Origin: Fidelibacterota bacterium | Lineage (GTDB): Bacteria; Pseudomonadota; Alphaproteobacteria; Rhodospirillales; Rhodospirillaceae | NCBI GenBank assembly: GCA_947481595.1 | Contig: CANKHC010000003.1 | Span: 1-42,368, forward strand | Direction: 5' to 3' | Length of the DNA: 42,368 nt | Position numbers and translations under genes: made by a program | Notes under the pieces: generated by a model | Databases searched by the model: none | What the model was told of the DNA's origin: nothing | Seen by the model: the letters and a program-made list of their open reading frames with translations, nothing else | Shown here: positions 22,479-42,368 of the stretch, one piece after another | Layout of the letters: every line of letters begins with the position of its first letter | How positions within the stretch are numbered: position 1 is the stretch's first letter

Positions 22479-24476
22479 CTACTCGGCTCCGAGGGCGACC
22501 ACGGGGTCGAGGTTGGCGGCTTTGCGCGCCGGCAGGTATCCGAACAGGATGCCGGTGACAAAGGCGCAGGAGAACGCCAGCAGAATCGGTCCCGGCGAGA
22601 ACATGATGGGTTTGCCGAAATACGAGAACGCAAGTGCGGTTCCCATACCGACGGCGACGCCGATCAACCCGCCGATGGCACAGACCACCAGGGCCTCGGT
22701 GTTGAATTGCAGCAGGATGTTGAGCTTGCGCGCACCCGTGGCCATGCGCACGCCGATCTCGCGCGTGCGCTCGGTGACGCTGACCAGCATGATGTTCATC
22801 ACCCCGATTCCGCCCACCAAGAGCGAGATCGCTGCCACCGCGCCGAGCAAGATAGTCAGGGTGTTCTGGGTCTCGGTCGCGGTTTCGAGCACCGAGACCA
22901 TGTTGCGGATCTGGAAGTCTTCCTGCTTGTGGCGCGCGATCAGAAGCTGACGCACGGCTTCTTGCGTCGCGTCGATGCGGCTGACGTCCTTTACCGCCAC
23001 GGTGATGGTGCGGGCATAGCGCTGGCCATAGATGCGCTGCGCGCCGGTGGTGATCGGCACGAAGATCTGGTCGTCGAGATCGTTGCCGTTGTTGTTCGCA
23101 CCCTTGGCCGCCATCACGCCGATGACCTGGAAGGGGTTGTTGTTGACGAGCACATACTGGCCCAAGGGATTTTCGCCGTTGGTGAACAGCGCCTTGACCA
23201 CGGTCTGTCCCAACACCACGACCGGGGCGTAATCCGCCACGTCGGCCTGGGTGAAGAACGCCCCCTCCGTCGTGTTCCAATCGCGCGCGGCGGGGTAGTC
23301 GGCGGTGGTGCCGTCGACGCTGGTCTGGGCATCGTTCTTGCCGTAGCGCACGGTCACCCCGTTGGGGAACTCGGGCACCGCCTGGTCGACATTGGGCAAA
23401 GTGGCGATGGCTTCGGCGTCGACCGGTACCAGCGAAGCGCGGAAACCGCCGGCAAAACGCTGGTTGGGCGCGCCGGGCCGGATCAGCAAGAGGTCCGTGC
23501 CCATGGCCGAGATGCTGTCGAGCACCTTCTGCTTGGCGCCGTTGCCGATGGCCAGCATGGCGACCACCGAGGCAACGCCAATGATGATGCCGAGCAGGGT
23601 GAGAAGCGTACGCATCCAGTTGTTGCGCAGCGACCGTACCGCCATCTTGGCGGCTTCGGTTACGTCCGGAAGGCTGGCGAAGGACGGCGCCGGGCCCAGG
23701 CCCTCAGGCGCGATCGCCTTCTCCAGGCGCGCGGCATCGGGGGCTATCGCGCCGGTGTCAGAGGTGATCACGCCATCTTTTATTTCGACCACGCGCTTGG
23801 CGCGTTTGGCCACGCTCGCGTCGTGGGTGATGATCAGAATGGTGTGGCCGGCGGCATTGAGCTCGGCCAGAAGCTTCATGACTTCTTCGCCGCTCTTGCT
23901 GTCGAGGGCACCCGTGGGTTCATCTGCCAGAATCACCGCCGCGCCGTTCATCAGCGCGCGGGCAATGGACACACGCTGCTGTTGGCCGCCGGAAAGCTGG
24001 TTCGGGCGATGGTGCAGACGGTCGCCGAGGCCAAGCTGTGTCAGCAAATCCTCGGCGCGGGCGATGCGTTCGGCATGGGAATGGCCGGCGTAAACCGCGG
24101 GCACCTCCACGTTCTCGGCGGCCGAGGACGTCGCCAGAAGATTGTACTGCTGAAAAATGAATCCGAAGGCGCCGCGGCGGAGCAGCGCGCGTTGGTCGGC
24201 GTCTAGGCCGGAGACTTCCTGGCCCGCAAAGAGGTAACTGCCCGAACTCGGCCGGTCGAGACAGCCTAAAATGTTCATCAACGTGGTCTTGCCCGAACCC
24301 GACGCGCCCATGATGGCGACCATCTCGCCGGGATAGATGTCAAGCGTGACACCGTGCAGCACCTTTACCGCGATCTCGCCGTTCTCATAGGTCTTGGTGA
24401 TATCGCTGAGGGCGATGATCGGCGTGACCGACGATTGCGTGTTAACTGTGTGTTTGGTCTGGCGAAGTTCGTTCAT
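22479..24476 (-). CDS. macB: MacB-type ABC transporter, ATPase-permease
   Basis: A 665-residue mechanotransmission ABC protein. The N-terminal ATPase has Walker [10 protein letters not shown] near residue 56, signature LSGGQQQR near 160, Walker [13 protein letters not shown] and ITHD. A linker leads to the first membrane helix near 290, then a periplasmic domain of about 230 residues, then three helices and the FtsX-like end with GVRMATGA. It does not move substrate through the membrane; ATP hydrolysis in the dimer drives efflux from the periplasm through MacA and the outer-membrane channel. It overlaps macA by ATGA. Substrates could be macrolides, peptides or other periplasmic compounds. Confidence 0.93.
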
Positions 24477-25906
24477 ATGCGCGGGCCTCCGCCACCGGGT
24501 CCGCCGAAGCGCCGCCCACCGCCCTGGTCCTGTTGCGGGCGTGCGCCACTCTGTACGCCGCCGTCCAGAACAACTTCATCGCCGGGCTGCAGGCCGGATT
24601 TCACTTCCGCCAGCATGCGGTTCATCACGCCGATCTCGACGTCGCGTGTGACCATCTCGCCGTCTTCCATCACATGTACCTGGTAGCGCACGGGGGCAAC
24701 GCCTGAAGCCATGCGTTCGCGCATGCGCAGGCCGCGCCCGCCGCCGGGAGAGGTTCCGGCCGCACCGCTGCCGTCGCCGCCTTGTCTGCGCGCACGCTGT
24801 TGGTCAGCAGGCGCCGCGCCTTGCGCGTCAGCCGTCGCTTGCTCCGGAGCGCCTGGTGTTGATGCGTTGGGACGGGGCCCGCGCACTGTGTGCAGCGCGG
24901 TCACCGGCACCACCGGCACGTTGCGCGCGCCGGCCACGACAAAGAACACCTGCGCGCTCATCTGGGTGAGCAGGTCGCCGTCGGGGTTCTCGACGTCAAA
25001 GAGTGAATTATAGAGCACGACGTTGTTGACCACGTCGGGTGTGGGAATGATCTTGCGCAGCTTGCCGTAGCGGCGCCGGTCAGATGTGCCGAGCGTGGTG
25101 AAATAAGCATCCATGCCGACCTTGAGCTTGGGCACATCGGCTTCCGACACCTGCGCCCACACCGTCATGGTGGAAAGGTCAGCAACGCGCAGCACGATCG
25201 GTGCGGTCTGGTTGGCGTTCAAAGTCTGGCCTTGCTTGGCCACCAGATTGACCACCGTGCCGTCCATCGGCGAATAGATTTTCGTATAACCCAGATTGGC
25301 GGTGTCACCCGCCAGCGTGGACTCGGTCTGCTGGATCTGCGCCTGCAATTGCGCGACCGTCGCCACGGCGACTTTCAAAGCCGCGTTCGCGCTGTCGAAT
25401 TCATTCTGGCTGGTGGCGTTTTCCTTGAGCAGTTCTTGTTGGCGTCCGAACTGCAGCTCGGCCAGCGTGCGTTGTGCCTGGCGCTGGGCCAGCTGAGCGC
25501 GCAGGTTAAGCAGTTGCGCCTGGTCGGCGCTCACACGTGATTGATAGATGGTCGGGTCGATCTCGGCGAGAAGGTCGCCCTTCTTCACCTGCTGACCGTA
25601 ATCGACATACAGGCTGCGCAACTGCCCCGACACCTGCGTACCGACGTCGACGAATTGCAAGGGCTGCAGCGTGCCCAAAGCGGTAACGGAGTCTTCCACG
25701 TCGCCGAGGACAATCGGCTGGGTCAGGGCGGTGGTGGAGGCCGTGTCGCGTCCGAACGTTGTCCAGATGCCATAACCCGCGATCGCCAAAACCACGACGG
25801 CCAGGGCCGGCACAACCCACCGCGGGCGCGGCCGCGCGGCGAGCCCCGCGAGCGGCGATTTGCTCGAAGGCGCTTTCTGCGGCGAAATATTGCGGGGTTC
25901 GAACAT
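24473..25906 (-). CDS. macA: MacA-type periplasmic adaptor (membrane fusion protein)
   Basis: A 477-residue HlyD/MacA adaptor. A short cytoplasmic N-terminus leads to a membrane anchor at about 30-50, then a barrel-lipoyl-hairpin layout: [26 protein letters not shown], a long hairpin helix pair rich in Gln and Leu, and [14 protein letters not shown]. The C-terminal 150 residues include an unusual Gly/Pro/Gln/Arg-rich insertion (around 345-395) and a Gly-rich tail. It links MacB to the outer-membrane channel. It is the first gene of macA-macB-nodT-msrA. Upstream 180 bases are AT-rich and hold the promoter. Confidence 0.92.
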
Positions 25907-26083: not shown

Positions 26084-26842
26084 ATGCCCTCACCAAATCC
26101 TGCGGCCCCAGCGTTAACCCGTGCCACGGCTTGTTTTGTCGTGCTGGGCGCGCTTGCCTTGGTGGGCGCTCTGTTTGCGGCGGACCTGCTCATAGTCGTA
26201 CGTGCGGAGTTCGTAGCCGGTGCCGCGCTGCCCTATGCCGTGGGCGGTCTCCTGGCGGTGACACAGATTGCGCGCCACCACCCCCACCCTACGTTCGGTG
26301 CGGCTAATCTGGTCACACTTTTGCGGCTGCTATTGACCAGCCTGTTCTCGGGCTTTGCCGTCGAGATGCTTTTCAACCCCGCTTCGCCTGCGGACGAGGC
26401 CCTGTGGGCCGCGTTCTTTCTCGCTCTTGCGGCGGTCTCGCTCGACGGGGTCGACGGCTTCCTCGCGCGGCGCTTAAGTATCAGCTCGGACTTCGGCTCA
26501 CGCTTTGACATGGAAACCGACGCCTTCCTGATCCTGATGCTCTCGCTGGCGGTCTTCGCTTTGAACAAGGCAGGCGCCTGGGTGCTGCTCGGCGGATTGA
26601 TGCGCTACATCTTCGTCCTCGCCGGTTGGTTCTGGCCGGCGATCGCCCGGCCTCTGCCGCCCTCGATGCGGCGCAAAGTCATCTGCGTGGTGCAGACCGG
26701 CGGACTGATCCTGCCGCTGGCGCCGACAATCGATCCGCCCACCGGCGCGCTGATCGCTTTTGCCGCATTTTTGCTTCTACTTTACTCCTTCGCCGCCGAT
26801 GCGCTCTGGAGCGTGCGCGCTGGCGCGCCACAACCGTCATGA
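26084..26842 (+). CDS. CDP-alcohol phosphatidyltransferase family protein
   Basis: A 252-residue integral membrane enzyme with about six helices. The family signature D-x2-DG-x2-AR-x8-G-x3-D-x3-D is intact: Asp121, Asp124, Gly125, Ala128, Arg129, Gly138, Asp142, Asp146. It binds a CDP-alcohol with Mg2+ and transfers a phospho-alcohol to an acceptor alcohol, as in phosphatidylglycerophosphate or phosphatidylinositol synthases. The N-terminal 75 residues, with two helices and a His-rich loop, are longer than in PgsA. Substrates are unknown. Its stop overlaps the ATG of the sulfatase-like gene, so the two proteins are made together. Confidence 0.88.
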   Translation: MPSPNPAAPALTRATACFVVLGALALVGALFAADLLIVVRAEFVAGAALPYAVGGLLAVTQIARHHPHPTFGAANLVTLLRLLLTSLFSGFAVEMLFNPASPADEALWAAFFLALAAVSLDGVDGFLARRLSISSDFGSRFDMETDAFLILMLSLAVFALNKAGAWVLLGGLMRYIFVLAGWFWPAIARPLPPSMRRKVICVVQTGGLILPLAPTIDPPTGALIAFAAFLLLLYSFAADALWSVRAGAPQPS

Positions 26843-28431
26843 CCGCATTTCCGCAACACACCACTATCCTGCGCTGGTTGGTAGCCCTTCTGGCGATCCA
26901 CGCCATCCTGCTTCTGCCTGACCGGCCCGAGGCGTTGGGGCTGCATCTGCTCAGACTGCTGCCGCTCGAGCTGCCACTGATCGTGCTCGGCCTCGTCGCC
27001 TTCACCGGGCGCACGCGCGACGTGCTGCGCATTCTTGTCGTCGCGCTGCTTGCTCTCATGCTGATCTTCAAGCTCGCCAGCATCGGCACGCGCTTCGGCT
27101 TCGACCGGCCCTTCAATCCGCTGGTCGATGCCGCGATGATCCCCGTCGCCTTCGATACCATTGCCAAGGGCGTAGGCTTCCTCGGCGCGGCGGCGGCGGT
27201 GCTCGCAGTGCTGTTGATCGTCGGCCTCGTGGTGGTGCTTCTCTATTGGGCGACGGGCGTGATCGCGCACAGCGTCACCGCCGAGGCTCGCATCTTCGTC
27301 TCGGGTGCCGCCTTCTTCGTCGCCATGCTGTCATTCATCCCGGCGCTGAGTGGAAATCTACACTGGGACTCCAGCGTTTTCATGCGCGACCAGGCCGTGG
27401 GCTTTGTGCGCAACATCGAAGACAGCGGGCGCTTCCGCGCGGCCCTTTTGGAAAAGCCCTTCGCCGATCTGCCGGCCGAAGGCCGCTTGGCCGGCCTCAA
27501 AGACACCGACGTACTGTTCATCTTCGTCGAGTCCTACGGCCGCTCGTCCCTCGACAATCCGCGTTTTTCGGACGCCGTGCGCACACGCCTCAAAGCCTTC
27601 ACCGCCGAGATGGCGGCCAAAGGCTTCACCGCCAAAAGTGCCTGGATGGACTCTCCCACCTACGGCGGCGAGAGTTACCTCGCCCACAGCACCGTGGTGT
27701 CGGGACTGTGGGTGGACAACAACCAGCGCTACGGCCAGCTCCTGAAGAGCCAGCACGAAACCCTTGTCGGCGATTTCGCTAAGGCCGGCTGGCGCACCGT
27801 CACGGTGATGCCCGAAATCACCATGCCCTGGCCCGAGGTGGACTTCTTCGGCTTTGACGCCGTCTACAGCGCCCTCAACCTCGACTATAAGGGCCAGTCC
27901 TTCGACTACATGACGATGTCGGATCAATACGCGCTGGCCGAGCTGCAGCGCCGCGAACTCGACCCCACGTCACGCAAGCCGGTGATGGCCCTCGTCGGGC
28001 TGATCTCCAGCCACATCCCCTGGGCGCCGCTGCCCAAGCTGGTGCCCTGGGACGCCGTCGGCGACGGCACCGTCTTCACCACCGCGCGCACGCCCGAAAG
28101 CGCCAACGACGTCTGGCGCGATCCCAAAACTGTCGATGCCTTCTACGCCAAGTCCATCGACTACAGCCTGGAAACCTTGGCTTCCTTCGTCAGCACCTAT
28201 GCCAAGGACAACACCTTGGTGTTCATCATCGGCGACCACCAGCCCATGAGCTTCATCTCCGGCGAGGGTGCGAGCCATGAGGTGCCGGCCCATCTCATCG
28301 CCCGCAACCCCGCGCTGATTACCGCGTTAGAGCAGGGCACCTGGACGCCCGGAATGGAGCCCACCCGCGACAGCCCCACCTGGCCTATGGACTCGCTGCG
28401 CGAACGCATACTAAAGGCATATACGCCCTGA
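26839..28431 (+). CDS. Membrane sulfatase/LtaS-like phosphotransferase
   Basis: A 530-residue alkaline-phosphatase-superfamily protein. About five membrane helices fill residues 10-180; a large extracytoplasmic domain follows. FIFVESYGRSS near residue 230 supplies the metal-binding Glu, TYGGESYLAHS near 275 probably holds the Ser/Thr nucleophile, and FIIGDHQP near 465 gives the Asp-His pair. This layout matches LtaS, OpgB and EptA-type transferases, which move phospho-headgroups at the outer face of the membrane. ATG 26839 makes an ATGA overlap with the CDP-alcohol transferase gene; the frame is open further upstream but antisense-like. It may modify a lipid or glycan made with that partner. 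Confidence 0.86.
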   Translation: MTAFPQHTTILRWLVALLAIHAILLLPDRPEALGLHLLRLLPLELPLIVLGLVAFTGRTRDVLRILVVALLALMLIFKLASIGTRFGFDRPFNPLVDAAMIPVAFDTIAKGVGFLGAAAAVLAVLLIVGLVVVLLYWATGVIAHSVTAEARIFVSGAAFFVAMLSFIPALSGNLHWDSSVFMRDQAVGFVRNIEDSGRFRAALLEKPFADLPAEGRLAGLKDTDVLFIFVESYGRSSLDNPRFSDAVRTRLKAFTAEMAAKGFTAKSAWMDSPTYGGESYLAHSTVVSGLWVDNNQRYGQLLKSQHETLVGDFAKAGWRTVTVMPEITMPWPEVDFFGFDAVYSALNLDYKGQSFDYMTMSDQYALAELQRRELDPTSRKPVMALVGLISSHIPWAPLPKLVPWDAVGDGTVFTTARTPESANDVWRDPKTVDAFYAKSIDYSLETLASFVSTYAKDNTLVFIIGDHQPMSFISGEGASHEVPAHLIARNPALITALEQGTWTPGMEPTRDSPTWPMDSLRERILKAYTP

Positions 28432-28446
28432 AGGAGTGCTGCCCCC

Positions 28447-29217
28447 GTGTTCGTCCGTTTCGGCCACCAAACCCAAGACAAAGCCCGCGCCGAGCGTGCG
28501 GTCGCAGTGCTGCCGTTGGCCGCCATGGAAGCGCACGGGCCGCATCTGCCGCTCGCTACCGACGCGCTGATTGCCGAAGGCATACTCGACCGCGCAGCGG
28601 AACTTGCGACCGGCTCCCAAGAAGTCCTGCGCCTGCCGGTCCTGTGGCTCGGTGCCTCCATCGAACACGCTGACCGCGCCGGCACCCTGTCGCAAGAGCC
28701 CGAGCAGCTCATCGCGCAGATCGTTTCGATTGGCGAAGGCCTTACCAAAAGCGGCATCAGCCGCATCGTTCTGTTCAACGGCCACGGCGGAAACATCGCG
28801 CCGGCCGCCATCGCCGCCCTCAAACTGCGCACGCGTTTCGGCATGCTTGCCGCCAGCGCCCATTGGCTCGACTTCGGATTGCCTGATGGTCTGGTCCCGC
28901 CCGCACCCGTCGCCATCGACGTGCACGGCGGCTGGGTCGAGACCTCGGTGCTCTTGCATCTTGAGCCTGATCTTGTCGTGCGCGGCGCTGTCGCCAATCG
29001 CCCCGCCGCACCGCCGGCATCGATGCTGTTCCCGTCAGGCCCGATCAACTGGGGCTGGAAGACCGACGACCTCGCCGACCAAGGCGGCGACGGCGGTTGG
29101 ATCGGCGAGGCCCGCCTGGCTGACCCCGCGCTCGGCGCGCAGATGGTCGATCACGCCGCGCGCGCGCTCAACAAACTGCTGGATGAGATTGCAAGCGCGC
29201 GCTGGCCGCGCGCTTAG
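28447..29217 (+). CDS. Creatininase-family metal amidohydrolase
   Basis: A 256-residue protein with creatininase metal ligands: Glu28 and His30 in AMEAHGPHLPLATD, Asp39, His in FNGHGGN near 115 and Glu in DVHGGWVETS near 165. The family hydrolyses amide or ring C-N bonds and includes creatininase, MftE and archaeal ArfB, which deformylates the GTP-derived FAPy intermediate in riboflavin/F420 synthesis. It lies beside RibA and a RibD-C reductase, so a pyrimidine- or pterin-type substrate is attractive, but this is inference. GTG 28447 has AAGGAG ten bases upstream. It abuts the ribA stop without spacing (TAGTTA). Confidence 0.87.
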   Translation: MFVRFGHQTQDKARAERAVAVLPLAAMEAHGPHLPLATDALIAEGILDRAAELATGSQEVLRLPVLWLGASIEHADRAGTLSQEPEQLIAQIVSIGEGLTKSGISRIVLFNGHGGNIAPAAIAALKLRTRFGMLAASAHWLDFGLPDGLVPPAPVAIDVHGGWVETSVLLHLEPDLVVRGAVANRPAAPPASMLFPSGPINWGWKTDDLADQGGDGGWIGEARLADPALGAQMVDHAARALNKLLDEIASARWPRA

Positions 29218-30342
29218 TTATTTACCGTTGAAGCCGGCCAGCATGTGGCCGGCGCGGTGGGCCTTGGTTTGCAGATAATCGTGATTGTGCGGATTGACCG
29301 TGCCCATGATGCGCTGGTGGCCGACGACATTGACCCCGAAGCTTTCCATCGCAGAAATCTTGTCGGGGTTATTGGTCATCAGCGTGATGCGCCGATATCC
29401 CAGCAACGCCAGCATCGCGCCCGCTACCGAATAGCGCCGCTCATCCGGGCCGTAGCCCAGCACGGCATCGGCATCCATGGTGTCGTGGCCTTGGGCCTGC
29501 AGACCGTAAGCGCGCATTTTATTGAGCAGCCCGATGCCGCGGCCTTCCTGGTCGAGATACAAGAGCACGCCGCTGCCGTGCGCCGCGATCTCGCCGACGG
29601 CGAGGCGCAGTTGATCGCCGCAATCGCACTTCAAGCTGCCGAAGAGATCGCCGGTCAGGCAGGCCGAGTGCAGGCGGGTCAAAACGGGTTCGCGCGGATT
29701 GGGCTTGCCGATGACGATGGCCACCTGGTCGCGCAAGCCGTCGCCGCCGCGGAAGATGACAAACTCGGCTTCGTCGGTGTCGGCCAGCGGCACGCGCGTG
29801 CGCGCGGCGATGGTCAGATCGCGCGCCGACTGTTCATGGAAGTCGGCCACGGCTGCCGCGTCGACTTCGATCAGTGCGGCCCGTTCGCCCGCCGCCGTCG
29901 GCAACACCACTGCCGCCGGCAGAAGGTAGGCGCGTTTGACCAACTCCAGCGCGGTGTCTTCGAGCGCGTTGGCGGGGCGGTATTCAAAAGCCGGCAGGAC
30001 GGGTTGTACCGCCGCCAGGATCTCGTCGATCTCGTCTCCCATCAATCCGGCGAGTGAAATGTGCGCAGCCCCCTCGGTCGCAAGGCCGATATGGGTCATG
30101 CGCGGCGCGGGCAGCACCAAGCCAGGCGCGCCGCCGGTGGCGCGGTGCCAGGCGGCAATGCGGTCGCCGGCCAGCATTTCGGCCGCGGCAACCGTCAGAC
30201 TGCCATGCTCGCCCCGCAGCTTCACCGGGCGACCGGCCCGAAGCTCGCCCACGGCACGCTGTACGCTCAACCGGCCGGGGTTGCCGAACCACCTTGCCAA
30301 GTCGCCGTCGACGGTACCAATCTTCACATGTTCATTAGGCAC
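29218..30342 (-). CDS. ribA: GTP cyclohydrolase II, long form with relic N-domain
   Basis: A 374-residue RibA. The C-terminal half (about 205-374) has the Zn cysteines C228, C239 and C241, YLDQEGRGIGLLNK, Tyr279 and the catalytic Asp300-Arg302 pair in PDERRY. It should convert GTP to the 2,5-diamino-6-ribosylamino-pyrimidinone phosphate, formate and pyrophosphate. Residues 25-190 align with RibB (DHBP synthase: AVGELRAGRPVKLRGEHG...TVAAAEML), but the acidic catalytic stretch (DDEDRENEGD in RibB) is missing, so that domain is not a DHBP synthase. Start is GTG 30342. Only 27 bases separate it from the divergent RibD-C start. Confidence 0.92.
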   Translation of the reverse strand: MPNEHVKIGTVDGDLARWFGNPGRLSVQRAVGELRAGRPVKLRGEHGSLTVAAAEMLAGDRIAAWHRATGGAPGLVLPAPRMTHIGLATEGAAHISLAGLMGDEIDEILAAVQPVLPAFEYRPANALEDTALELVKRAYLLPAAVVLPTAAGERAALIEVDAAAVADFHEQSARDLTIAARTRVPLADTDEAEFVIFRGGDGLRDQVAIVIGKPNPREPVLTRLHSACLTGDLFGSLKCDCGDQLRLAVGEIAAHGSGVLLYLDQEGRGIGLLNKMRAYGLQAQGHDTMDADAVLGYGPDERRYSVAGAMLALLGYRRITLMTNNPDKISAMESFGVNVVGHQRIMGTVNPHNHDYLQTKAHRAGHMLAGFNGK

Positions 30343-30369
30343 TGCTTATCCATCAGTCAGAAATCTGTC

Positions 30370-31146
30370 ATGCACACCATTGTGGACTGGGAGCCCAACA
30401 CTTCGCAATGGTCTCAAGTCCTTGCCGCAGCCCACGGTTGCGTCGTTTCCGATCGCATTAGTGACAACGCGCTGTGGCCGATTTATGGCCCATTGATCCC
30501 AAAATCGGGCCATCAAGCGGTTGTGATCGGCCAGCTCGGCCAATCCCTAGATGGGCGAATCGCCACGCCGAGCGGCCACTCTCATTATATCAACGGTGCA
30601 GCCGCCCTGGTGCACCTGCATCGCCTGCGTGCTTTGGTGGACGCGGTGGTGGTGGGAGTCGGCACCGTCGTCGCCGACAATCCGCAACTCACTATACGCC
30701 GCGCGAGCCTCGCGCCAGGCAAAACCCAGCCGGCCCGGGTCATCATCGATCCCCACGGCCGCATCCCGCCGGGGGCGCGCTGCCTCACTGACGACGGCGC
30801 GCGGCGCATCGTCATCGGCGCCAAAGCACCGGCGGGCACCGAGCGCATGGACCTTCCGCCTGAGGGCGACCCCGCCGGGATTCTCAAAGCGCTGGCTGAA
30901 CGCGGCCTTCCCCGCGTGCTGGTGGAAGGCGGGGCCAACACGCTCTCGCGGTTTCTGGCAGCCGGCTGCCTTGACCGGCTGCACATCATGACTGGGCCGA
31001 TCATCATCGGTTCGGGGCCAACGGGTGTAACGTTGCCAGCCATCGACACCCTCGACAAGGCGCTGCGCCCCGATGTCAGCACCTACGCCCTGCCGGGTGG
31101 TGACATTCTCTTCGACTGTGCATTTTCAAAGCGGAGCGGATCATGA
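30370..31146 (+). CDS. Stand-alone RibD-C/DHFR-like reductase
   Basis: A 258-residue protein of the RibD C-terminal (pyrimidine reductase) family without the N-terminal deaminase domain. IGQLGQSLDGRIATPSG opens the core, VVGVGTVVADNPQLT at 94-108 binds NADPH, and RVLVEGGANTLSRFL near 192 is the family glycine motif. Such enzymes reduce the ribosyl chain of the RibA product to ribityl. The 45-residue N-terminal extension is unrecognised. ATG 30370 is chosen; ATG 30328 in the same frame would overlap the divergent ribA start. The stop overlaps the cytochrome b561 start (ATGA). Confidence 0.85.
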   Translation: MHTIVDWEPNTSQWSQVLAAAHGCVVSDRISDNALWPIYGPLIPKSGHQAVVIGQLGQSLDGRIATPSGHSHYINGAAALVHLHRLRALVDAVVVGVGTVVADNPQLTIRRASLAPGKTQPARVIIDPHGRIPPGARCLTDDGARRIVIGAKAPAGTERMDLPPEGDPAGILKALAERGLPRVLVEGGANTLSRFLAAGCLDRLHIMTGPIIIGSGPTGVTLPAIDTLDKALRPDVSTYALPGGDILFDCAFSKRSGS

Positions 31147-31682
31147 TCGATGCAGCCTTGCGCTACAGCGTGCCGGCGAAATTCTTTCACTGGCTCTCGG
31201 CGGCCACGATCCTCACCGCGATTGTGCTCGGCTTCGCGATGCTGGAGTCAGATCCCGGCCCGCGGCAGAACCAATTCTACGACCTCCACCGCTCTTTCGG
31301 TTTCCTGATCCTGCTGTTGACCGCCGCGCGCTTGTCCTGGCGGCTCTACTCACCGCCGCCGCCGATGGTGGCGGGTCTGCCGGTTTGGCAAGAGCGCGCC
31401 GCGCGTGTGACCCACGCCGCACTCTATATTCTACTGCTGGTGATGCCGTTCGTCGGCTGGGCCGGAACCTCGGCCTTCGGCGCTCGCATTTCGATCTTCG
31501 GGCTTTTCGACCTGCCGATGATTCTGGAAAAGGACGAAGCGGTTTCCAAGGTGCTGCTGCCGCTGCACGGCGCCTTGGGGCTCACGCTGTGCGCGCTCCT
31601 GTTCATGCACATCGGCGCAGCGCTCTTCCACCACTTCGTGCGCAAGGACGATACGTTGCGCAGGATGTTGCCGGGCGGCTAA
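31143..31682 (+). CDS. Cytochrome b561, membrane di-haem protein
   Basis: A 179-residue four-helix membrane protein of the bacterial cytochrome b561 family. Haem-ligand histidines are in FFHWL (H16), DLHRS (H49), the LHGAL loop and the last helix (MHIGAALFHHF). It carries electrons across or along the inner membrane, often to or from quinone. It is translationally coupled to the RibD-C reductase, an odd pairing, since that enzyme is soluble and uses NADPH. The stop codon overlaps the stop of the convergent methyltransferase (CTAA). Confidence 0.9.
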   Translation: MIDAALRYSVPAKFFHWLSAATILTAIVLGFAMLESDPGPRQNQFYDLHRSFGFLILLLTAARLSWRLYSPPPPMVAGLPVWQERAARVTHAALYILLLVMPFVGWAGTSAFGARISIFGLFDLPMILEKDEAVSKVLLPLHGALGLTLCALLFMHIGAALFHHFVRKDDTLRRMLPGG

Positions 31683-32515
31683 TCCGAGATCATCGCCGCG
31701 AAAACATCGCGGTGGCCGATGGTCAAGGTCTTTCCCGGCAGGCACGTCTGCATCAGCCATTCCTGCAACGTGTCAGTCGGAATGTCGCCGGTCTCCGCGA
31801 CGGCTCCGGCGATGCCGGTGGCGGTTTCGGTCAGCAGCGATGAATACTTGAGCATCCACGGGCTCTCGCCTCCAACCGGGCGGTAGCCGTTCTCGGTCAG
31901 GATTTCCTCCAACAGCCGCGCCGCATCGGCGCCCGCCGAGGGTCCAAACCCTTTGTCGCGCGTCTGATGGCGGCGAAAGCTGGCGGCCACTTGTTCGTCG
32001 AGCCGATGATAAGGGTGCCCGCTGATCTCGCCGTTGGCGGTCAGCATGGCCAGCAGCGGCGTGCGCTCTTTGGCAAGGGCGGCGACAAAGCGTTCCAACC
32101 ACGCCGCCGAGACCAGATCGAACAACGCCGAGGCGGTGATGAGGTCAACGCTCTCCGGCCAATGGGCTTCACGTCCGAAATCCTGCTGCCACAAGCGCAC
32201 CGTGATGCGCTTGCCGGATTTTTCCAGAAGCAGACCTTCGCCCTGCGGTTTGGCGGTGTCGGCCCAAGCCGTCAGGACTTCGCGCGCGGCTTTGAGATTC
32301 GCCGCGTCATAATCGACGAGCGTCCAGTCCTGTTCAGGCGGCAGGAGTTCCGCCAATGCCCGGAGTGACGAGCCGGTCCCGGCGCCGAGATCGCACACCG
32401 ACACACGCGGTCGCGCCGCGAAATAAAGTGCGCTCACCGCCAGTACATCGCGGTTGCGCGCCAGCCGGTCAGCGGGTTCGCGAAGCGCCAGCCAATCGGG
32501 TGAAAAGCCACTCAC
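31679..32515 (-). CDS. Class I SAM-dependent methyltransferase
   Basis: A 278-residue methyltransferase. Motif I VSVCDLGAGTGSSLRAL is near residue 43, followed by TLVDYDAANL (motif II) and SVDLITASALFDLVS (motif IV). Substrate-binding residues could not be assigned. GTG 32515 overlaps the GT4 stop by four bases (GTGA); an upstream open frame to 32593 lies inside the GT4 gene and is ignored. It is the last gene of the long co-directional run that begins beyond the window, so it may modify the product of the PTPS/ADH genes or a sugar. Inference. Confidence 0.86.
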   Translation of the reverse strand: MSGFSPDWLALREPADRLARNRDVLAVSALYFAARPRVSVCDLGAGTGSSLRALAELLPPEQDWTLVDYDAANLKAAREVLTAWADTAKPQGEGLLLEKSGKRITVRLWQQDFGREAHWPESVDLITASALFDLVSAAWLERFVAALAKERTPLLAMLTANGEISGHPYHRLDEQVAASFRRHQTRDKGFGPSAGADAARLLEEILTENGYRPVGGESPWMLKYSSLLTETATGIAGAVAETGDIPTDTLQEWLMQTCLPGKTLTIGHRDVFAAMISD

Positions 32516-33552
32516 GGCAAAGCACTCCAAAGGGCCTCGGAAACCGCTGCGGCCGCGTCGTCCCAGCGCGGAAGGCTTTGGCCGTGTGCCCAAGCATTCT
32601 CGGCCATGCGCTTGCGGAGCGCGGTATTTGTGAGGATACGCCGCAGCGCCTCCGCCAGCGCCTCGGGATCATCGGGCGGAACCAACAGGCCAGCATCGGC
32701 GGGCACCGTCCCGGTCACCGCGCCTGCGGCACATGCGACGATAGGTAATCCATGCGCCATGGCCTCGGCGAAGACCATGCCGTAGCCCTCATGCCGCGAC
32801 GGCAGCACGAAGACATCCGCATTGTCATAGGCCGGTGCCAGATCAGTCATTTCGCCGCGCAAGACGACCCGGTCCCCCAGATCATGCTGCGTGATCAACG
32901 CGCGCACCTTGGCCGTCACCACCGGATCGCGGTCGGTGCTGCCCACCAGCACGCTGGTCCAGTTTAAATCCTTTATGCGCGCGAGCGCTTCTACCAAGAC
33001 ATCGGGCGCCTTGCGGTGAGTGAGCGTTCCCACCGTCAGCAGCACCGGCGCGCCGGTGCTGCCCCGCGCCCGCGGCGCCTGGTCGGTACCGGGCTCCGCC
33101 AGCGTGAGACGGTCGCGCGGCACGGCGTAATCGCGCGCGAGAGTCTCAAACGTGTGCCCGCTGGTGACCACGACCGCTTGCGCCAGCGCCAGCGCTGCGC
33201 GCTCGCTCGCCTTGAAACGCGCGACATCGGGCGCGCTCAGGCCGGTTTCTTCCGCCAATGGGTGATGCACCAGAGCGGTCAGGCTGAGATTGAGTTCGCC
33301 CAAGAGCTCCTGCGGCAATGCGCCGTAAGCCAGCCCGTCGAACAACACCGCGCTCTCCGGCGGCAATGCCGCTAAAATGTCGCTGGTGGCTTTCAAATCC
33401 GCCACGGCCGGATTGGGAAAGCTTCCCGGCAGCGGCACATGATGCGCCGTCCATCCCGCGCCGGGCAGCGCCGCCATCAGCCGGCGCGCATAAGCATAGC
33501 CGCCGGTCAGTGTCGTCAGGTCACCGGGAATGGCAAACCAGACGTCGGGCAT
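32512..33552 (-). CDS. GT4 family glycosyltransferase
   Basis: A 346-residue GT-B fold enzyme. The N-terminal half has the acceptor part (GGYAYARRLMAALP, HHPLAEETG); the C-terminal half has VLLTVGTLTHRKAPDVLVEAL, and RHEGYGMVFAEAMAHGLP holds the E-x7-E catalytic pair of family 4. It transfers a sugar from a nucleotide or lipid donor with retention. Its ATG follows the PTPS-like stop directly (TAGATG), and its stop overlaps the methyltransferase start. No signal peptide. Position inside the pterin-like run suggests glycosylation of a heterocycle or of a glycan, both unproved. Confidence 0.92.
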   Translation of the reverse strand: MPDVWFAIPGDLTTLTGGYAYARRLMAALPGAGWTAHHVPLPGSFPNPAVADLKATSDILAALPPESAVLFDGLAYGALPQELLGELNLSLTALVHHPLAEETGLSAPDVARFKASERAALALAQAVVVTSGHTFETLARDYAVPRDRLTLAEPGTDQAPRARGSTGAPVLLTVGTLTHRKAPDVLVEALARIKDLNWTSVLVGSTDRDPVVTAKVRALITQHDLGDRVVLRGEMTDLAPAYDNADVFVLPSRHEGYGMVFAEAMAHGLPIVACAAGAVTGTVPADAGLLVPPDDPEALAEALRRILTNTALRKRMAENAWAHGQSLPRWDDAAAAVSEALWSALP

Positions 33553-33951
33553 CTAGAGATCCGACTCAAAGGAGGCCAGGGCGTTGTGGGATTCGTTCAG
33601 CGTGATCTTCAACCGTGCGAGGCCCTTGGCCGAAGGTCCCAGTTTGCCCGCAGCGATGGCGGCTTTGACCTTGTCGAAAACCCAGCGCGCGACGACTTCC
33701 GTGGTCGTGCGCTTGCCTTTGAATTCGGCATGTTCGTCGAGGTTGCTGTAGTTGATGATCGCCAGGGTGCTCTTGACCACATCCAGCGCCAAGCCGATGT
33801 CGACGACAATGTCGTTCTCGTCCAGTTCCTTACGCATGAAACAGACATCGATGACATAGGTCGCGCCATGCAGTTTCTGGGCCGGGCCGAACACTTCCCC
33901 CGGAATGCTATGGGCAATCATCACGTGGTCGCGGACTTCAACGGTATACAT
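33553..33951 (-). CDS. PTPS/QueD-fold protein with altered active site
   Basis: A 132-residue member of the 6-pyruvoyl-tetrahydropterin synthase/QueD fold. Family His residues occur in IAHSI and KLHGA, a later NLDEH segment aligns with QueD LDHHYLND, and Glu in LNESHNA matches the pterin-anchoring Glu. The Cys of QueD CGRLHGH is Ala, and the second His of HGH is also Ala, so the standard catalytic Cys and one of three Zn ligands are absent. It may bind a pterin or act differently. Start ATG 33951 has TAGGA six bases upstream; an ATG two codons earlier has no spaced site. Confidence 0.85.
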   Translation of the reverse strand: MYTVEVRDHVMIAHSIPGEVFGPAQKLHGATYVIDVCFMRKELDENDIVVDIGLALDVVKSTLAIINYSNLDEHAEFKGKRTTTEVVARWVFDKVKAAIAAGKLGPSAKGLARLKITLNESHNALASFESDL

Positions 33952-33969
33952 CGTCATTCCTATTCGTCG

Positions 33970-34935
33970 TTACGTATAGCGCAGGACCGTCATCAGTCCG
34001 GCGCCGGTGAAAACCGAGGGCAATTGTGCGGGTGCATCGGCGAAGGCGATCTCGCCGGTGATCAAGGCATCGAACTTGTCGTCGCGCAGCAACGCCAGTG
34101 CCTTCGCCATGCGCCGTTGATAGGTCCAGCGCGCGCGTTGCGGGGCGGCGACGGCGCCGACCTGCGATGAGATCAGCGACAGGCGTTGCGAATGGAACGC
34201 ACCACCCAGCGGCACCGGCACGTCTTTGTCGCCGTACCAGCTCGCCTCGATGATACGCCCTTCGAAGGCAGCGCTGGCGAGGGCGAGCTTCAATCCTTCG
34301 GAACTGGCGCTGGTGTGGATGACAATATCCCGATCCTTCGGCGCGGCGGAGGGCAGTGCGAAGGACACCCCCAACGTCTCCGCGACCGCGCGGCGCGCGG
34401 GATCGATGTCGGTGATGGTCACGTCGGCGCCGGGAAGCTCCGCCGCCAGGGCGGCGATCAACAGCCCCAACACGCCGGCCCCGACGACGAGGATGCGGTC
34501 GCCGGCGGTGGCGCGCGAATCCCACAGCGTATTGAGCGCGGTCTCCATGTTGGCGGCCAATGCGGCGCGGCGCGGCGGCAAGCCGTCTGGCAGCACATTG
34601 AGCGCGCTCACCGGGACGAGGGCTTTGGTCTGATGCGGATGCAAAAGGAACACATTCCGCCCGACGACTTCCTTTGGTCCTTCCTCCACCACGCCCACCA
34701 GGCAGTAGCCGTATTTGACGGGGAAGGGGAAATCGCCCTCTTGGAAGGGGCAACGCATGCGCGTGTGCTCCGATGCCGGCACGCGGCCCTCAAGGATCAA
34801 GCGTTCGGTGCCCTTGCTGATGCCGGAGAACCGCGCCGCCACCAAAGCTTCGCCAGAGCTTGGCTGGGCGAGCGTGCCCGCGCGCCGTTCCACGCGTCCC
34901 GCGCCCGCGTACCATAAAGCTTCAACTTGCGGCAT
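33970..34935 (-). CDS. Zinc-type alcohol dehydrogenase family (MDR) protein
   Basis: A 321-residue medium-chain dehydrogenase/reductase. ISKGTERLILEGRVP replaces the usual catalytic Cys segment, and KYGYCLVGVVEEGP and the Rossmann motif ILVVGAGVLGLLIAALA near 160 are clear. The structural zinc loop with four Cys is missing, as in the compact 'zinc-binding alcohol dehydrogenase' group near bacterial PTPS genes. NAD(P)H-linked redox of an unknown alcohol or carbonyl is expected. ATG 34935 starts 14 bases inside the end of the TPR-transferase gene, with GAGGA close upstream. The longer frame to 35049 is inside that gene. Confidence 0.85.
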   Translation of the reverse strand: MPQVEALWYAGAGRVERRAGTLAQPSSGEALVAARFSGISKGTERLILEGRVPASEHTRMRCPFQEGDFPFPVKYGYCLVGVVEEGPKEVVGRNVFLLHPHQTKALVPVSALNVLPDGLPPRRAALAANMETALNTLWDSRATAGDRILVVGAGVLGLLIAALAAELPGADVTITDIDPARRAVAETLGVSFALPSAAPKDRDIVIHTSASSEGLKLALASAAFEGRIIEASWYGDKDVPVPLGGAFHSQRLSLISSQVGAVAAPQRARWTYQRRMAKALALLRDDKFDALITGEIAFADAPAQLPSVFTGAGLMTVLRYT

Positions 34936-36883
34936 TTCCTCGGTCCTCGGCGGCGATGTCGATGTGGTCGGGCGCCAAGCCCTGCCAATACCGTTCGCAC
35001 ATCTGGGTATAGGCGGATTCCATATGCCGCGCAAAGAGCCTCGGATCAAACAAGGGCTGCGTCAGGCGGTTGCGCGCAAGCTTGTCGCGGACGGCGCGCA
35101 GCATCCCCGGATTCTGCGCCAGTTCCCCGGCGCGGTCCTCGTACTCCTGCGTCGTCGTCGTCACTAACTCTGGAAGATCGAGCGCTGCCAGGAGGCCGGC
35201 CGCAACCCGTGCGGTCAAGGATTGCCCAGCTTGGGTGAGGAGCGGCAGGCCCATCCACAGGGCGTCACTCGCGGTGGTGTGGGCATTGCAGGGCAGGGAG
35301 TCGAGAAACAAATCGGCCAGCGGTTGACGCGCGAGGTGGACGCCCTGTGGCGCACGCCGCGCAAAGATCAGGCGGGCGGGATCGATCCCACGGGCGGCGG
35401 CTTCGCGGCGCAGGTTGCGAGACGCCGTCGCATTGTCCTCGAACAGCCACAGCACGCTGCCCGGCACGCGCGCGACGATGCGCATCCACACGTCGAACAT
35501 CGCCGGCGTGAATTTAAACGTGTTGTTGTGGCAACTGAAGACAAAGGCCTCTGCAGGCAGTCCTGCCGCGGCCCGGGTCGGTGCATGGTCATCAATCGCG
35601 CGGGTGGTATCGTTGGCCTGGTAGCTGTAAGGCAGGCGGACGACTTTCTCGGTGAAATACGGACGCGCCGCATCGGTGACGATCGTGGTGTCGGCGATCA
35701 CATAGTCGTAGTAGTCCGAACCCATGGTTCCCGGATAGCCGAGGTAGGTGGCCTGAATCGGCGCGGCCCCCGCGGCGAAGATGCCGGTGCGCGATCCGTA
35801 GGTATATCCCGCGAGGTCAACGGCGATATCGATCCCCAGTGCGCGGGACAAGGCGGCGATCTCGACATCGGTTTTCTCGCGTACATCGATGAATTGGTCG
35901 ACGCCGCATTCCACACGTCGGCGCAATGCGTCATGCGCCTCCGGCCCGAAAGACAACGCAATGGTTTCAAACCTGCTGCGGTCGTGGGCCTCGAAAAGGC
36001 CTGCGATCAACTGGGATGTGGGATGGGCGAAGTAGTCTTTGGAAAAATAGCCCACGCGGATCCGGGACTGGCGCGGCCTCGCCGGCACAGGACCGAGGGC
36101 AGTGTTGCGCGGGTGCATCGCATGCGCCCAGGTCTGCGCGGCTTTGTGCTGCGCTGCCGGTGCATCGGCCATAAGCAGCAAGGGAAAGGGCGAAGAGACT
36201 TTCTCACCCCGCGCGACGCGCGCGAGCAAATCGGCGAGAGCACTGTCAAGACCGGTCCAGTCGCAGATGGTCATGCGGGTGTGCAGCAGCGTCCCGGCGA
36301 GAAAGGGGTAGTCGGGTTTCAGTGCCGCCGCCCGTGCATAGGCTTCAATGGCCTCTTCGGTGCGCCGCAGTCCGGCCAGCACCACACCGCGATTGTGATG
36401 CGCCTCGGCGTAATCGGGGCTGAGGGCGGCGGCTTCGTCGAAGGCCTTGAGGGCGTCGGCCTCGTGCTTGTCCGCAAGCAGCGCCGCGCCGCGCGCGTTG
36501 TGACGTTCCGCCGCGTGCCGGGCCACGGCCTTTTGCAGCGCGTCGCGGTTGGCCATGGCATCGCCATAGTCGGGCTTCAAGGCGATGGCCTGCGCATAAC
36601 TGGCCAGGGCCTCGTCTGCCGCGCCGAGCGCTGCCTGCACATTGCCGAGATTGTAGTGCGCCACGGCATTGCTGGGATCGACCGCCAGTGCACGGCCGAT
36701 CAATGCCGCGGCCTCGTCCCGCGCGCCGGTCTGGGCAGCGGCGATGCCGCCGAGATGCAAAGCATCAAAATGCCGGGGATCAAGTTCCAAGACTTCGCGG
36801 TACAGCGCCAGCGCTTCGGCCGCCGCGCCGCGCTGGTGCGAAGCCCACGCCGCCTGGAATTTGACCTGGGCCGCCTCGGTCAT
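34922..36883 (-). CDS. TPR protein with OGT-type GT41 domain (third copy)
   Basis: A 653-residue protein: about five TPRs in residues 5-220, then a GT41 (O-GlcNAc transferase-like) domain to near 640. IRVGYFSKDYFAHPTSQL, FSCHNNTFKFTPAMF (Lys contacting UDP phosphate) and LPCNAHTTASDALW (HTT motif) are intact. Bacterial GT41 proteins add a sugar to a protein, glycan or lipid; the acceptor is unknown. Its start overlaps the previous TPR-GT9 stop (ATGA). An open frame to 37144 is a shadow of that gene. Last of the TPR-glycosyltransferase array, before the alcohol dehydrogenase. Confidence 0.9.
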   Translation of the reverse strand: MTEAAQVKFQAAWASHQRGAAAEALALYREVLELDPRHFDALHLGGIAAAQTGARDEAAALIGRALAVDPSNAVAHYNLGNVQAALGAADEALASYAQAIALKPDYGDAMANRDALQKAVARHAAERHNARGAALLADKHEADALKAFDEAAALSPDYAEAHHNRGVVLAGLRRTEEAIEAYARAAALKPDYPFLAGTLLHTRMTICDWTGLDSALADLLARVARGEKVSSPFPLLLMADAPAAQHKAAQTWAHAMHPRNTALGPVPARPRQSRIRVGYFSKDYFAHPTSQLIAGLFEAHDRSRFETIALSFGPEAHDALRRRVECGVDQFIDVREKTDVEIAALSRALGIDIAVDLAGYTYGSRTGIFAAGAAPIQATYLGYPGTMGSDYYDYVIADTTIVTDAARPYFTEKVVRLPYSYQANDTTRAIDDHAPTRAAAGLPAEAFVFSCHNNTFKFTPAMFDVWMRIVARVPGSVLWLFEDNATASRNLRREAAARGIDPARLIFARRAPQGVHLARQPLADLFLDSLPCNAHTTASDALWMGLPLLTQAGQSLTARVAAGLLAALDLPELVTTTTQEYEDRAGELAQNPGMLRAVRDKLARNRLTQPLFDPRLFARHMESAYTQMCERYWQGLAPDHIDIAAEDRGNAAS

Positions 36884-40910: not shown

Positions 40911-42368
40911 CAGTGCGCCTCCGCAATGGTGATGTCAGCCGGCGGCAGCCCGGCCAGCGCCCGCTCCTGCGCGCGGGCATAGGCATCTTCCAGGGTGCGG
41001 GTGAAGCGTTGCGGATCGAACAACAGCGACGCCGGTGTATTTTGGGCCAGCTTGCCGCGCAAAGACTTCAACCGCGCCGGATCGTGCGCCAGCGCAATCG
41101 CCAGCTGTTCAAAGCCGTCTTGCGACGTGGTGATGAGTTCGGGCAGGCCGGCCGCCGTGAGCAGGCTGGCGGCGATGCGCGCCACATAACTTTGGCCGGC
41201 GCGGGTGAGCACCGGCACGCCGGCCCACAAGGCATCGCTGGCGCTGCTCGCGGCGGTGAAGGGGAACGTATCGAGCATCAGGTCGGCAGCGCGCTGCCGT
41301 GCGAGATGCTCCTCGGGATCAAGGCGCGCGGCGAAGATCAGGCGCTCGGCAGCGATGCCCGCGTCTTTCGCGGCGCGGCGCAGGTTGGCGGCCGCGGCGG
41401 CATTGTGGTGCGAGAGCCACAGAACGCCGCCTGGCACGGCGGCCAGGATTCGCAACCACCCTGCAAAACAGTCGGGGCTGATTTTATTGGCGGAGGTGAA
41501 AGCGCCGAAGACAATTTCCGACTCAGGCAATCCCACTTCGGTCCGTGTGAAGCGGCGCGGCGCGATCACCCGGCGCTGGTCGCCCGCCTGATACCGCGGC
41601 AGATAAAGCACCTTCTCGGTAAAATGGGGCCGGCTCTCGGGCGGGATCAAGACAGGGTCGGCGACAATATAGTCGATGAAATCCGCACCCATGGTGCCGC
41701 CAAAGCCCAAATAGTTGATTTGCACCGCTGCCGCGCGCGCGGCGAAAGTGCCCGCGCGCGAGTCCGCCGTATACCCGGCCAGGTCGACGGCGATGTCGAT
41801 GCCCAGCGCCCGCGCCATGGTGGCGACATCCGCGTCGGACTTTTCCCGCACATCGATGAAACGGTCAAAGGCGCCACGCAGGCGCTGCTGCATCGCGTCC
41901 CCGGTGTCGGGCCCGAAGGAAAACGCGGTGCAGTCGAAGCGGGCGCGGTCGTGAGACTCAAAAACGCCGGCCATGAGTGTCGCCACCGGATGCTCGCAGA
42001 AATCGGGCGAGAAATAGCCGATGCGGATTTTCTCATGACGGGTCGCTGCCGGCGCCGCCGCCGTCATGGGATGCTTGGCGCGCGTCCAGATCTCGGCGGC
42101 TTTGCGGTGCAGATTTGGGTCGTCGATCAACGACAGGATCGGCCAGGGCGGTGTGACGGCCTCGCCGCGCTCCAGCGCGGCCTGCAGATTTGCCACGTCG
42201 CCCACGCGGTCATGCCAGTCGCACAGCCGTGCCTTGGTGTACAGCCGCGTACCTTCGACAAAATCAAGGTCCGGCTGTAGGCGCAGCGCCTGCGCGAAAT
42301 TCCTCGCGGCTTCTTCCAGACGGCCCGCATCGCTCGCGACCACGCCGCGGTTCTGCCAGGTTGCGGCA
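40910..42368 (-). CDS. TPR protein with GT41 domain, partial (first copy), altered HTT motif
   Basis: The frame is open to the window edge, so the N-terminus is missing. The edge still shows the end of a TPR (NRGVVASDAGRLEEAARNFAQAL), and GT41 follows. IRIGYFSPDFCEHPVATL and FTSANKISPDCF (Lys) are kept. The HTT motif that binds the UDP diphosphate is changed to Ala-Ser-Ser (TAASSASDALW, bases 41243-41251), so activity may be weaker, altered or lost. First visible gene of a tandem array; its stop overlaps the next start. Confidence 0.88.
   Translation of the reverse strand, partial: AATWQNRGVVASDAGRLEEAARNFAQALRLQPDLDFVEGTRLYTKARLCDWHDRVGDVANLQAALERGEAVTPPWPILSLIDDPNLHRKAAEIWTRAKHPMTAAAPAATRHEKIRIGYFSPDFCEHPVATLMAGVFESHDRARFDCTAFSFGPDTGDAMQQRLRGAFDRFIDVREKSDADVATMARALGIDIAVDLAGYTADSRAGTFAARAAAVQINYLGFGGTMGADFIDYIVADPVLIPPESRPHFTEKVLYLPRYQAGDQRRVIAPRRFTRTEVGLPESEIVFGAFTSANKISPDCFAGWLRILAAVPGGVLWLSHHNAAAAANLRRAAKDAGIAAERLIFAARLDPEEHLARQRAADLMLDTFPFTAASSASDALWAGVPVLTRAGQSYVARIAASLLTAAGLPELITTSQDGFEQLAIALAHDPARLKSLRGKLAQNTPASLLFDPQRFTRTLEDAYARAQERALAGLPPADITIAEAH

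Follow-up and report, generated by a model that had tools for sequence, protein, structure and literature searches.

A ten-gene locus apart from the riboflavin operon

The stretch of DNA analysed here (42,368 nucleotides of contig CANKHC010000003.1, assembly GCA_947481595.1, hereafter the window) carries at positions 26084–34935 a cluster of ten genes, among them a GTP cyclohydrolase II (RibA), a stand-alone RibD_C reductase and a PTPS-fold protein. An original prediction, made from the sequence alone, had placed ten gene families within 9 kb, and all of these were confirmed there by Pfam and NCBIfam scans of open reading frame (ORF) translations:

26084–26842, plus strand: CDP-alcohol phosphatidyltransferase (CdpT); PF01066, 63 bits
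26839–28431, plus strand: LtaS-like membrane sulfatase-fold protein, optional; PF00884, 34.4 bits (cut-off 25)
28447–29217, plus strand: creatininase-family amidohydrolase, an optional member that may deformylate the product of GTP ring opening; PF02633, 191 bits
29218–30342, minus strand: GTP cyclohydrolase II (RibA), optional, 374 aa; PF00925, 173 bits from residue 182
30370–31146, plus strand: stand-alone RibD_C reductase with an N-terminal extension, start codon inferred; PF01872, 136 bits
31143–31682, plus strand: cytochrome b561, optional; PF01292, 116 bits
31679–32515, minus strand: class I S-adenosylmethionine methyltransferase (MT), core, start inferred; PF13649
32512–33552, minus strand: GT4 glycosyltransferase, core; PF13692, 117 bits
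33553–33957, minus strand: PTPS-IV T-fold protein; PF01242, 74.8 bits
33970–34935, minus strand: BchC-like MDR dehydrogenase, core, ATG at 34933–34935 inferred; TIGR01202, 58 bits

CdpT, the LtaS-like gene and the creatininase follow one another on the plus strand, RibA lies on the minus strand, RibD_C and b561 on the plus strand, and the last four genes on the minus strand. CdpT and the LtaS-like gene overlap by 4 bases. In reading order, MDR, PTPS and GT4 are spaced by 12 and 0 bases, followed by a 4-base overlap between GT4 and MT (ORF coordinates, with the MT start inferred), an arrangement that looks like one coupled operon. CdpT, creatininase, RibA, RibD_C and GT4 retain the motifs typical of their families.

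The scans found no ribB, ribE, ribH or RibD deaminase domain in the ten-gene set, in keeping with the predicted “RibD-C reductase without deaminase” (RibD_C domain only, PF01872). The host genome (2.84 Mb, 84.8% complete, 220 contigs, the window being contig C3) holds a ribD-ribE-ribBA operon on a separate contig (C134), next to nrdR. The original prediction had proposed looking for a second rib set, and this operon answers to it; a third RibA lies on contig C120, and FolE is also present in this genome. On the missing genes and the operon on C134, we rejected the identification of the cluster as a riboflavin operon.

Conservation of the cluster across genomes and plasmids

Of 61 related genomes, counting the window's own, 28 have the PTPS (all 19 of the same genus, 6 of the 18 remaining in the family and 3 of the 24 remaining in the order). 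All ten genes were present in eight of the 20 relative loci fetched (20 out of 27 besides the window); two stretches (L037, L051) stop at contig ends, and a third (L038) ended early on the same contig as L055, where all ten are present. Among 84,980 species genomes, at least 580 loci encoded relatives of the window PTPS, in Halomonas, Marinobacter, Variovorax, Xanthobacter, Azospirillum and others.

Two sets of loci were tallied. The larger holds the best 80 of the at least 580 loci, leans towards the window and includes many stretches cut by contig ends. The smaller derives from an even sample of 398 genomes of the phylum, in which the PTPS-IV subfamily occurred in 27, the window's own included (26 of the 337 good-quality genomes), leaving 26 other carrier loci, two with stretches below 20 kb. 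Among the 80 loci (tblastn), GT4 was found at 79, MDR at 77, MT at 73, RibD_C at 64 and CdpT at 51, with RibA (n = 40), creatininase (n = 32), the LtaS-like protein (n = 21) and b561 (n = 15) as optional members. Near PTPS at the 26 loci were MDR (26), GT4 (25), MT (24), RibD_C (22), CdpT (12), the flippase-like LPG_synthase_TM (11) and RibA (11), and more rarely FkbM (8), b561 (7), creatininase (6), the LtaS-like protein (5) and YceI (4). The RibA and FkbM counts are those of general family members, because both profiles also match the control stretches (window 1–25000 and the two other rib contigs; the only matches there had 125 bits for RibD, 413 and 59 for RibA, and 51 for FkbM).

The order MDR, PTPS, GT4, MT on a single strand within 4.5 kb was kept at 23/26 and 62/80 loci. 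Whole-genome searches found the MDR family in 26/26 carrier genomes vs 0/20 non-carriers, MT in 24/26 vs 0/20 and the CdpT family in 14/26 vs 0/20, two of the 14 CdpT genes lying away from the cluster; the 20 non-carriers are those listed among the 371 genomes without a PTPS-IV match, not a random draw. In these counts closely related genomes carry full weight and the Fisher values ignore kinship, some contigs, judged by their length, are duplicated under two identifiers (e.g. L038/L055, L039/L056, L043/L058, L044/L057, L046/L059, L075/L177, L130/L188), and the hidden Markov models (HMMs) were trained on L035–L134 and partly tested on those same sequences. The ten genes had been predicted to act as a set; the conserved core is MDR-PTPS-GT4-MT-RibD_C, and by the locus counts RibA, creatininase, the LtaS-like protein, CdpT and b561 are optional members. 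That the set is coherent and distinct from riboflavin synthesis, as also claimed, is supported by the recurrence of these neighbours beyond the genus, in further families and classes and in a second phylum, and by the separate ribD-ribE-ribBA operon. At five loci (L084, L085, L101, L104, L114) the MT match lay about 5 kb from the core on the opposite strand, with an ABC exporter gene beside it in L104.

The core is found in Alpha-, Beta- and Gammaproteobacteria as well as in Actinomycetota, plasmids included. Plasmid records gave 22 PTPS matches, 20 at ≥40% identity and two weak; 11 of the 20 stronger ones were examined, and the plasmid group of the locus tally omits L136. Clusters with annotated neighbours were found on plasmids of Streptomyces fungicidicus, Microbacterium (59 kb, mobilizable), Methylosinus trichosporium OB3b, Agrobacterium, Thiodictyon and a Rhodobacteraceae strain. 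In unannotated records, HMMs detected CdpT, MDR, PTPS, GT4, MT, flippase, RibD_C, creatininase and RibA in S. globisporus, and MDR, PTPS and GT4 in Arthrobacter. The plasmid PTPS-IV proteins are mostly annotated as 6-carboxytetrahydropterin synthase, a queuosine enzyme. The lone PTPS-IV genes of the Streptomyces plasmids L136, L200 and L201 have cupin, MEKHLA, MBL-fold or discoidin-domain genes in their surroundings, along with a BTAD regulator. Phage copies were limited to three distant matches (28–31% identity) in unannotated records.

Predicted substrate choice of the RibD_C reductase

Substrate selection by RibD-type reductases depends on a single position. Lys at this position (K151 of BsRibG) goes with the deaminated intermediate AROPP, the fungal Thr and the archaeal Asn with the 2-amino intermediate 2,5-diamino-6-ribosylamino-pyrimidinone 5'-phosphate (DAROPP), and T35K in yeast RIB7 switches the preference (PMC3631187). 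The window RibD_C has Gln here, which aligns with Asn in 2azn and falls one place ahead of where the alignment with 2b3z starts; equating it with K151 presupposes a tag offset of 12 residues. In the 76 non-identical cluster RibD_C proteins the residue is Gln in 68, His in seven and Lys in one, the Lys being lost in 75/76, and the host's own RibD keeps Lys at this position, before SLDG. Four residues that yeast RIB7 requires (Thr, Asp, Glu and the Gly that follows) were invariant in 7/7 aligned cluster proteins. The window protein thus resembles the 2-amino (archaeal/fungal type) reductases in having no selector Lys, and scored 100.2 bits against the archaeal equivalog TIGR01508, below its cut-off of 186.45. 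These residues imply that the cluster RibD_C would reduce the 2-amino intermediate. Because the selector Lys is lost, the path would keep the 2-amino group, as pterins do, and this is the best sequence evidence for such a path.

RibA and the creatininase

The window RibA has an N-terminal extension of about 180 aa and, as in most relatives, retains the zinc Cys motifs (CLTG/CDCG) and the switch Tyr (RAY). It scored 218.8 bits against NF001591 (cut-off 148), which places it among GTP cyclohydrolases II, and 193.4 bits against the TIGR00505 equivalog, under the cut-off of 205.85. The switch position over 69 loci (duplicates included) was Tyr in 65, Met in two, Ile in one and Leu in one. Both Met cases are RibAs of Streptomyces clusters, each of which also has a creatininase; in S. 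fungicidicus (L135), a single cluster holds PTPS-IV and the Met120 RibA, some 4 kb from each other. Spoonamore and colleagues reportedly found that S. coelicolor SCO6655, because of its Met120, leaves the formyl group on its product and becomes able to deformylate once Tyr takes the place of Met. A formyl-retaining RibA is predicted from the switch residue for the two Streptomyces clusters.

BrbF, a creatininase-family protein of Sinorhizobium, is a proven deformylase of the formylamino intermediate of GTP ring opening (PMC9478397). A parallel with the related ArfB had been drawn for the window protein; the family assignment stood (191 bits), but the score against the ArfB model was far below the cut-off (27.8 vs 180 bits; 37.0 for a Streptomyces cluster member). 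The window creatininase is 32% identical to that of the S. fungicidicus cluster. RibA and creatininase were significantly paired in the 80 loci (both 27, RibA only 13, creatininase only 5, neither 35). A formyl-retaining RibA as the reason for the creatininase fits the two Streptomyces clusters only and is unsupported for the window, where RibA keeps its Tyr. RibA-family genes were present in 27/27 cluster genomes, hence clusters without ribA still have a possible source of its product. A second creatininase in genome G000 (contig C21; L146, 1477–2484, minus strand) begins, as judged by eye, with what resembles a signal peptide or membrane segment close to its start, unlike the cluster copy.

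PTPS-IV and the MDR dehydrogenase

PTPS-IV is a known subfamily of COG0720 (background in PMC5041015), described from AGeNNT as a cluster of 561 sequences with an FGPAQ signature and PF00925 and PF01872 neighbours; PF00925 is labelled GTP cyclohydrolase I/FolE2 there, and the part of that source drawn on here gives no pathway (PMC5445326). The window PTPS belongs to this subfamily by its FGPAQ and LHGAT signatures and by the same two neighbours. It scored 38.8 bits against the QueD model (cut-off 89.25), outside the catalytic PTPS/QueD proteins. The wording “degenerate PTPS/QueD” was apt: there is no Cys before LHG, and HGA replaces HGH, invariantly in 16/16 aligned members. The closest solved structure is 3d7j, SCO6650 (profile E 2.3e-57), a protein reportedly inactive as a PTPS and zinc-free, with its pterin-binding residues kept.

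The MDR protein matched TIGR01202 (BchC) at 58.1 bits over residues 47–274 of a 359-aa frame, below the cut-off of 291.25. In alignments, S(K/R)GTE and PVKYGY replace the Cys and GHE segments that hold the zinc ligands of zinc alcohol dehydrogenases, which sets the protein apart from those enzymes. The predicted MDR family was right, with the correction that the protein is BchC-like and without the usual zinc ligands. Its structural model (predicted local distance difference test, pLDDT, 94) was nearest, among the matches listed, to threonine, polyol and secondary-alcohol dehydrogenases, the polyol and secondary-alcohol types at template modelling (TM) scores of 0.73–0.81, and zinc-free quinone oxidoreductase types were also matched at about 0.7.

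Glycosyltransferase, methyltransferase and membrane genes

The window GT4 keeps the EX7E motif of its family. GT4 and MT occurred in one reading frame at 19/80 and 6/26 loci, which suggests consecutive steps; among the 80, 18 of the 19 fusions were in records titled Halomonas, Vreelandella, Marinobacter or Halovibrio, and one was in a bin titled Rhodovulum. A known tetrahydropterin glucosyltransferase was considered for GT4 and rejected, a structure search giving only general GT4 enzymes among the matches listed. The MT model (pLDDT 96) has a generic class I methyltransferase fold, and with generic class I matches only, its fold gave no lead to a substrate.

CdpT has its motif, DGxxARx8GxxxDxxxD, intact. 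CdpT and LPG_synthase_TM were both present at 34 of the 80 loci, CdpT alone at 17, the flippase alone at none and neither at 29; the corresponding counts at the 26 loci were 11, 1, 0 and 14. The LtaS-like protein matched the general Sulfatase model only (34.4 bits) and no NCBIfam family. YceI stands beside CdpT in a Marinobacter, and b561 beside RibD_C in the window.

FkbM-type matches (general profile) lay near 24/80 and 8/26 loci; at L121 (16412–18826), from Halomonas (Vreelandella) titanicae, the creatininase has an FkbM-type methyltransferase and MdoG (periplasmic glucan) as neighbours. Directly downstream of MDR in the window (34922–42343, minus strand) are four genes, three with GT41 (O-GlcNAc-transferase-like) domains, of which two also have TPR repeats, and a fourth with TPR repeats only. 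Just left of CdpT (22479–25906, minus strand) are a MacB-type ABC exporter and an HlyD-type adaptor, a putative product exporter.

A proposed pathway and its alternatives

From the gene set, its conservation, the motifs and the Lys-to-Gln change, all read in the sequences, we infer each reaction of the following route, and consider it probable that this is a dedicated, widely transferred cluster which channels the first riboflavin intermediate towards a 2-amino-4-oxo-pyrimidine or pterin that is both glycosylated and methylated. RibA would open GTP to give DAROPP; in the two Streptomyces clusters, a predicted formyl-retaining RibA would leave the formyl group for the creatininase to take off, and clusters without ribA would use the cell's other RibA. 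RibD_C would reduce DAROPP to the ribityl compound with no prior deamination. PTPS-IV, a T-fold with no metal site, may then hold the 2-amino-4-oxo ring for a side-chain hydride transfer by the zinc-free MDR. In the most economical version the ribityl C2' would be oxidized to a ketone, giving the skeleton of the GTP cyclohydrolase I Amadori intermediate, and this ketone could close onto the 5-amino group to form a dihydropterin in the PTPS-IV pocket. The chemistry given to PTPS-IV and MDR is the weakest step, and we put it forward as a rather doubtful suggestion. GT4 and MT would add the sugar and the methyl group. In many lineages CdpT, the flippase-like LPG_synthase_TM and the LtaS-like protein may lipid-link, flip or further decorate the product, a step for which we see about even chances; our best reading is that the predicted product is lipid-linked or exported in many lineages. 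The phrase “glycosylated, methylated or lipid-linked” in the original prediction fits the presence of GT4 and MT in the core and of the CdpT/flippase pair.

Several observations weigh against this route. Within the stretches searched, RibD_C was not found at 4/26 and 16/80 loci and RibA at 15/26 and 40/80, some stretches being short; because many loci are without a nearby RibA or RibD_C, the link to GTP is carried mainly by RibD_C, with RibA adding to it where it occurs. Nor is the RibA profile specific to the cluster, as the host RibA on C120 scores 413 bits. HMM searches found no RibD_C in the S. fungicidicus plasmid cluster, GT4 was not found in that of Rhodobacteraceae SC52, and three Streptomyces plasmids (L136, L200, L201) carry PTPS-IV without MDR, GT4 or MT. 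Since their RibAs keep the Tyr, most Proteobacteria should not need a separate deformylase, and a creatininase is present at 44/65 Tyr-RibA loci, mostly proteobacterial; in the even sample its pairing with RibA (both 4, RibA only 7, creatininase only 2, neither 13) was not significant (p = 0.35). PTPS-IV, without the PTPS catalytic residues, could be a binding protein instead, and side-chain alcohol oxidation by MDR is less certain because the zinc ligands are absent.

The genes could belong to lipid or surface-glycan synthesis, with GT4, CdpT, the flippase and the LtaS-like protein building a phosphoglycolipid and RibD_C, PTPS-IV and RibA recruited as folds for a substrate of non-GTP origin. 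The co-occurrence of CdpT, LPG_synthase_TM, LtaS-like and FkbM genes with the cluster would suit this, as would the lack of catalytic residues in PTPS-IV, but CdpT lies near the core at only 12/26 loci vs 22/26 for RibD_C and the catalytic motifs of RibA and RibD_C are retained in most members; we regard it as unlikely. The boldest reading, a quite unlikely one, has the cluster make a membrane-anchored pterin without GTP cyclohydrolase I, a lipid-linked carrier of redox equivalents that would meet cytochrome b561 or YceI at the membrane: RibA, RibD_C, MDR and PTPS-IV would form the ring by C1' reduction, C2' oxidation and closure in the metal-free T-fold, GT4 and MT would decorate it, and CdpT, the flippase and the LtaS-like protein would attach and export it.

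An accessory flavin module, in which RibA, RibD_C and the creatininase raise riboflavin output or produce a flavin modified by glycosylation and methylation, draws on the place of RibA, RibD_C and a BrbF-like deformylase among the activities of the riboflavin pathway (PMC9478397), and on the precedent of a RibBA serving flavin secretion in Sinorhizobium. We judge it improbable, as the set is without ribB, ribE and ribH, the ribD-ribE-ribBA operon lies elsewhere, the AROPP-selecting Lys is lost in 75/76 stand-alone RibD_C proteins and the core persists at loci without a nearby RibA. A route to ordinary pterins (folate or tetrahydrobiopterin) independent of GTP cyclohydrolase I could be drawn on paper, since the PTPS fold is present and the sequence RibA, RibD_C, MDR reaches the dihydroneopterin skeleton. 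However, FolE (PF01227) is present in 26/27 cluster genomes, the window's own included, so the cluster is not a FolE substitute; there is no other folate gene among the ten, and GT4 and MT are in the core. This route is accordingly disfavoured as highly improbable. The single families are common, as a chance gathering of unrelated neighbours would have it, but the conservation of order and content over two phyla and plasmids and the exclusive co-occurrence in the genomes tested leave that explanation a negligible probability.

Comparison with known systems

The word “uncharacterised” in the original prediction still holds for the product, but PTPS-IV with PF00925 and PF01872 neighbours has been described (PMC5445326) and the structure 3d7j exists. 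Compared with that AGeNNT neighbourhood, our clusters add GT4, MT, MDR, CdpT, the flippase, the creatininase and the LtaS-like protein, none of which is named in the part of PMC5445326 drawn on here. In the open-licence literature searched there was no account of the full cluster, and PMC5445326 alone notes the PTPS-IV/PF00925/PF01872 link. Within that scope, the full membership and core, the exclusive co-occurrence, the GT4-MT fusions, the co-travelling lipid genes, the plasmid spread, the RibD_C Lys loss and the Met-RibA/creatininase pairing in Streptomyces are new. With at least 580 loci, some of them in genera that can be cultivated (for example Halomonas, Marinobacter and Variovorax), a common bacterial metabolite, possibly lipid-linked, may be going unseen.

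The nearest named family of the MDR protein is BchC, found here beside PTPS-IV, also in Halomonas and Marinobacter. The cluster resembles the riboflavin-pathway steps of archaeal ArfA-ArfB-ArfC and Sinorhizobium BrbF in its combination of GTP ring opening, deformylation by a creatininase-family protein and RibD_C-type reduction of a 2-amino compound. It differs in having MDR, PTPS-IV, GT4 and MT beside these genes instead of ribB, ribE and ribH, and in that the window creatininase and RibD_C score below the ArfB and archaeal reductase cut-offs. The archaeal ArfA-ArfB-ArfC steps also serve F420 biosynthesis. In toxoflavin-type clusters, RibA and RibD homologues feed a methylated natural product, the toxoflavin RibD including a deaminase; these clusters are not known to include PTPS, GT4, MDR or lipid genes. 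The purpose of the PTPS-IV proteins, and of the Streptomyces GTP cyclohydrolase II homologue that is said to stop at the formylated product, can now be tested. SCO6650 of S. coelicolor (3d7j) is a PTPS-IV like the window PTPS and, judging from its relative S. fungicidicus, SCO6650 and SCO6655 probably belong to this same type of cluster.

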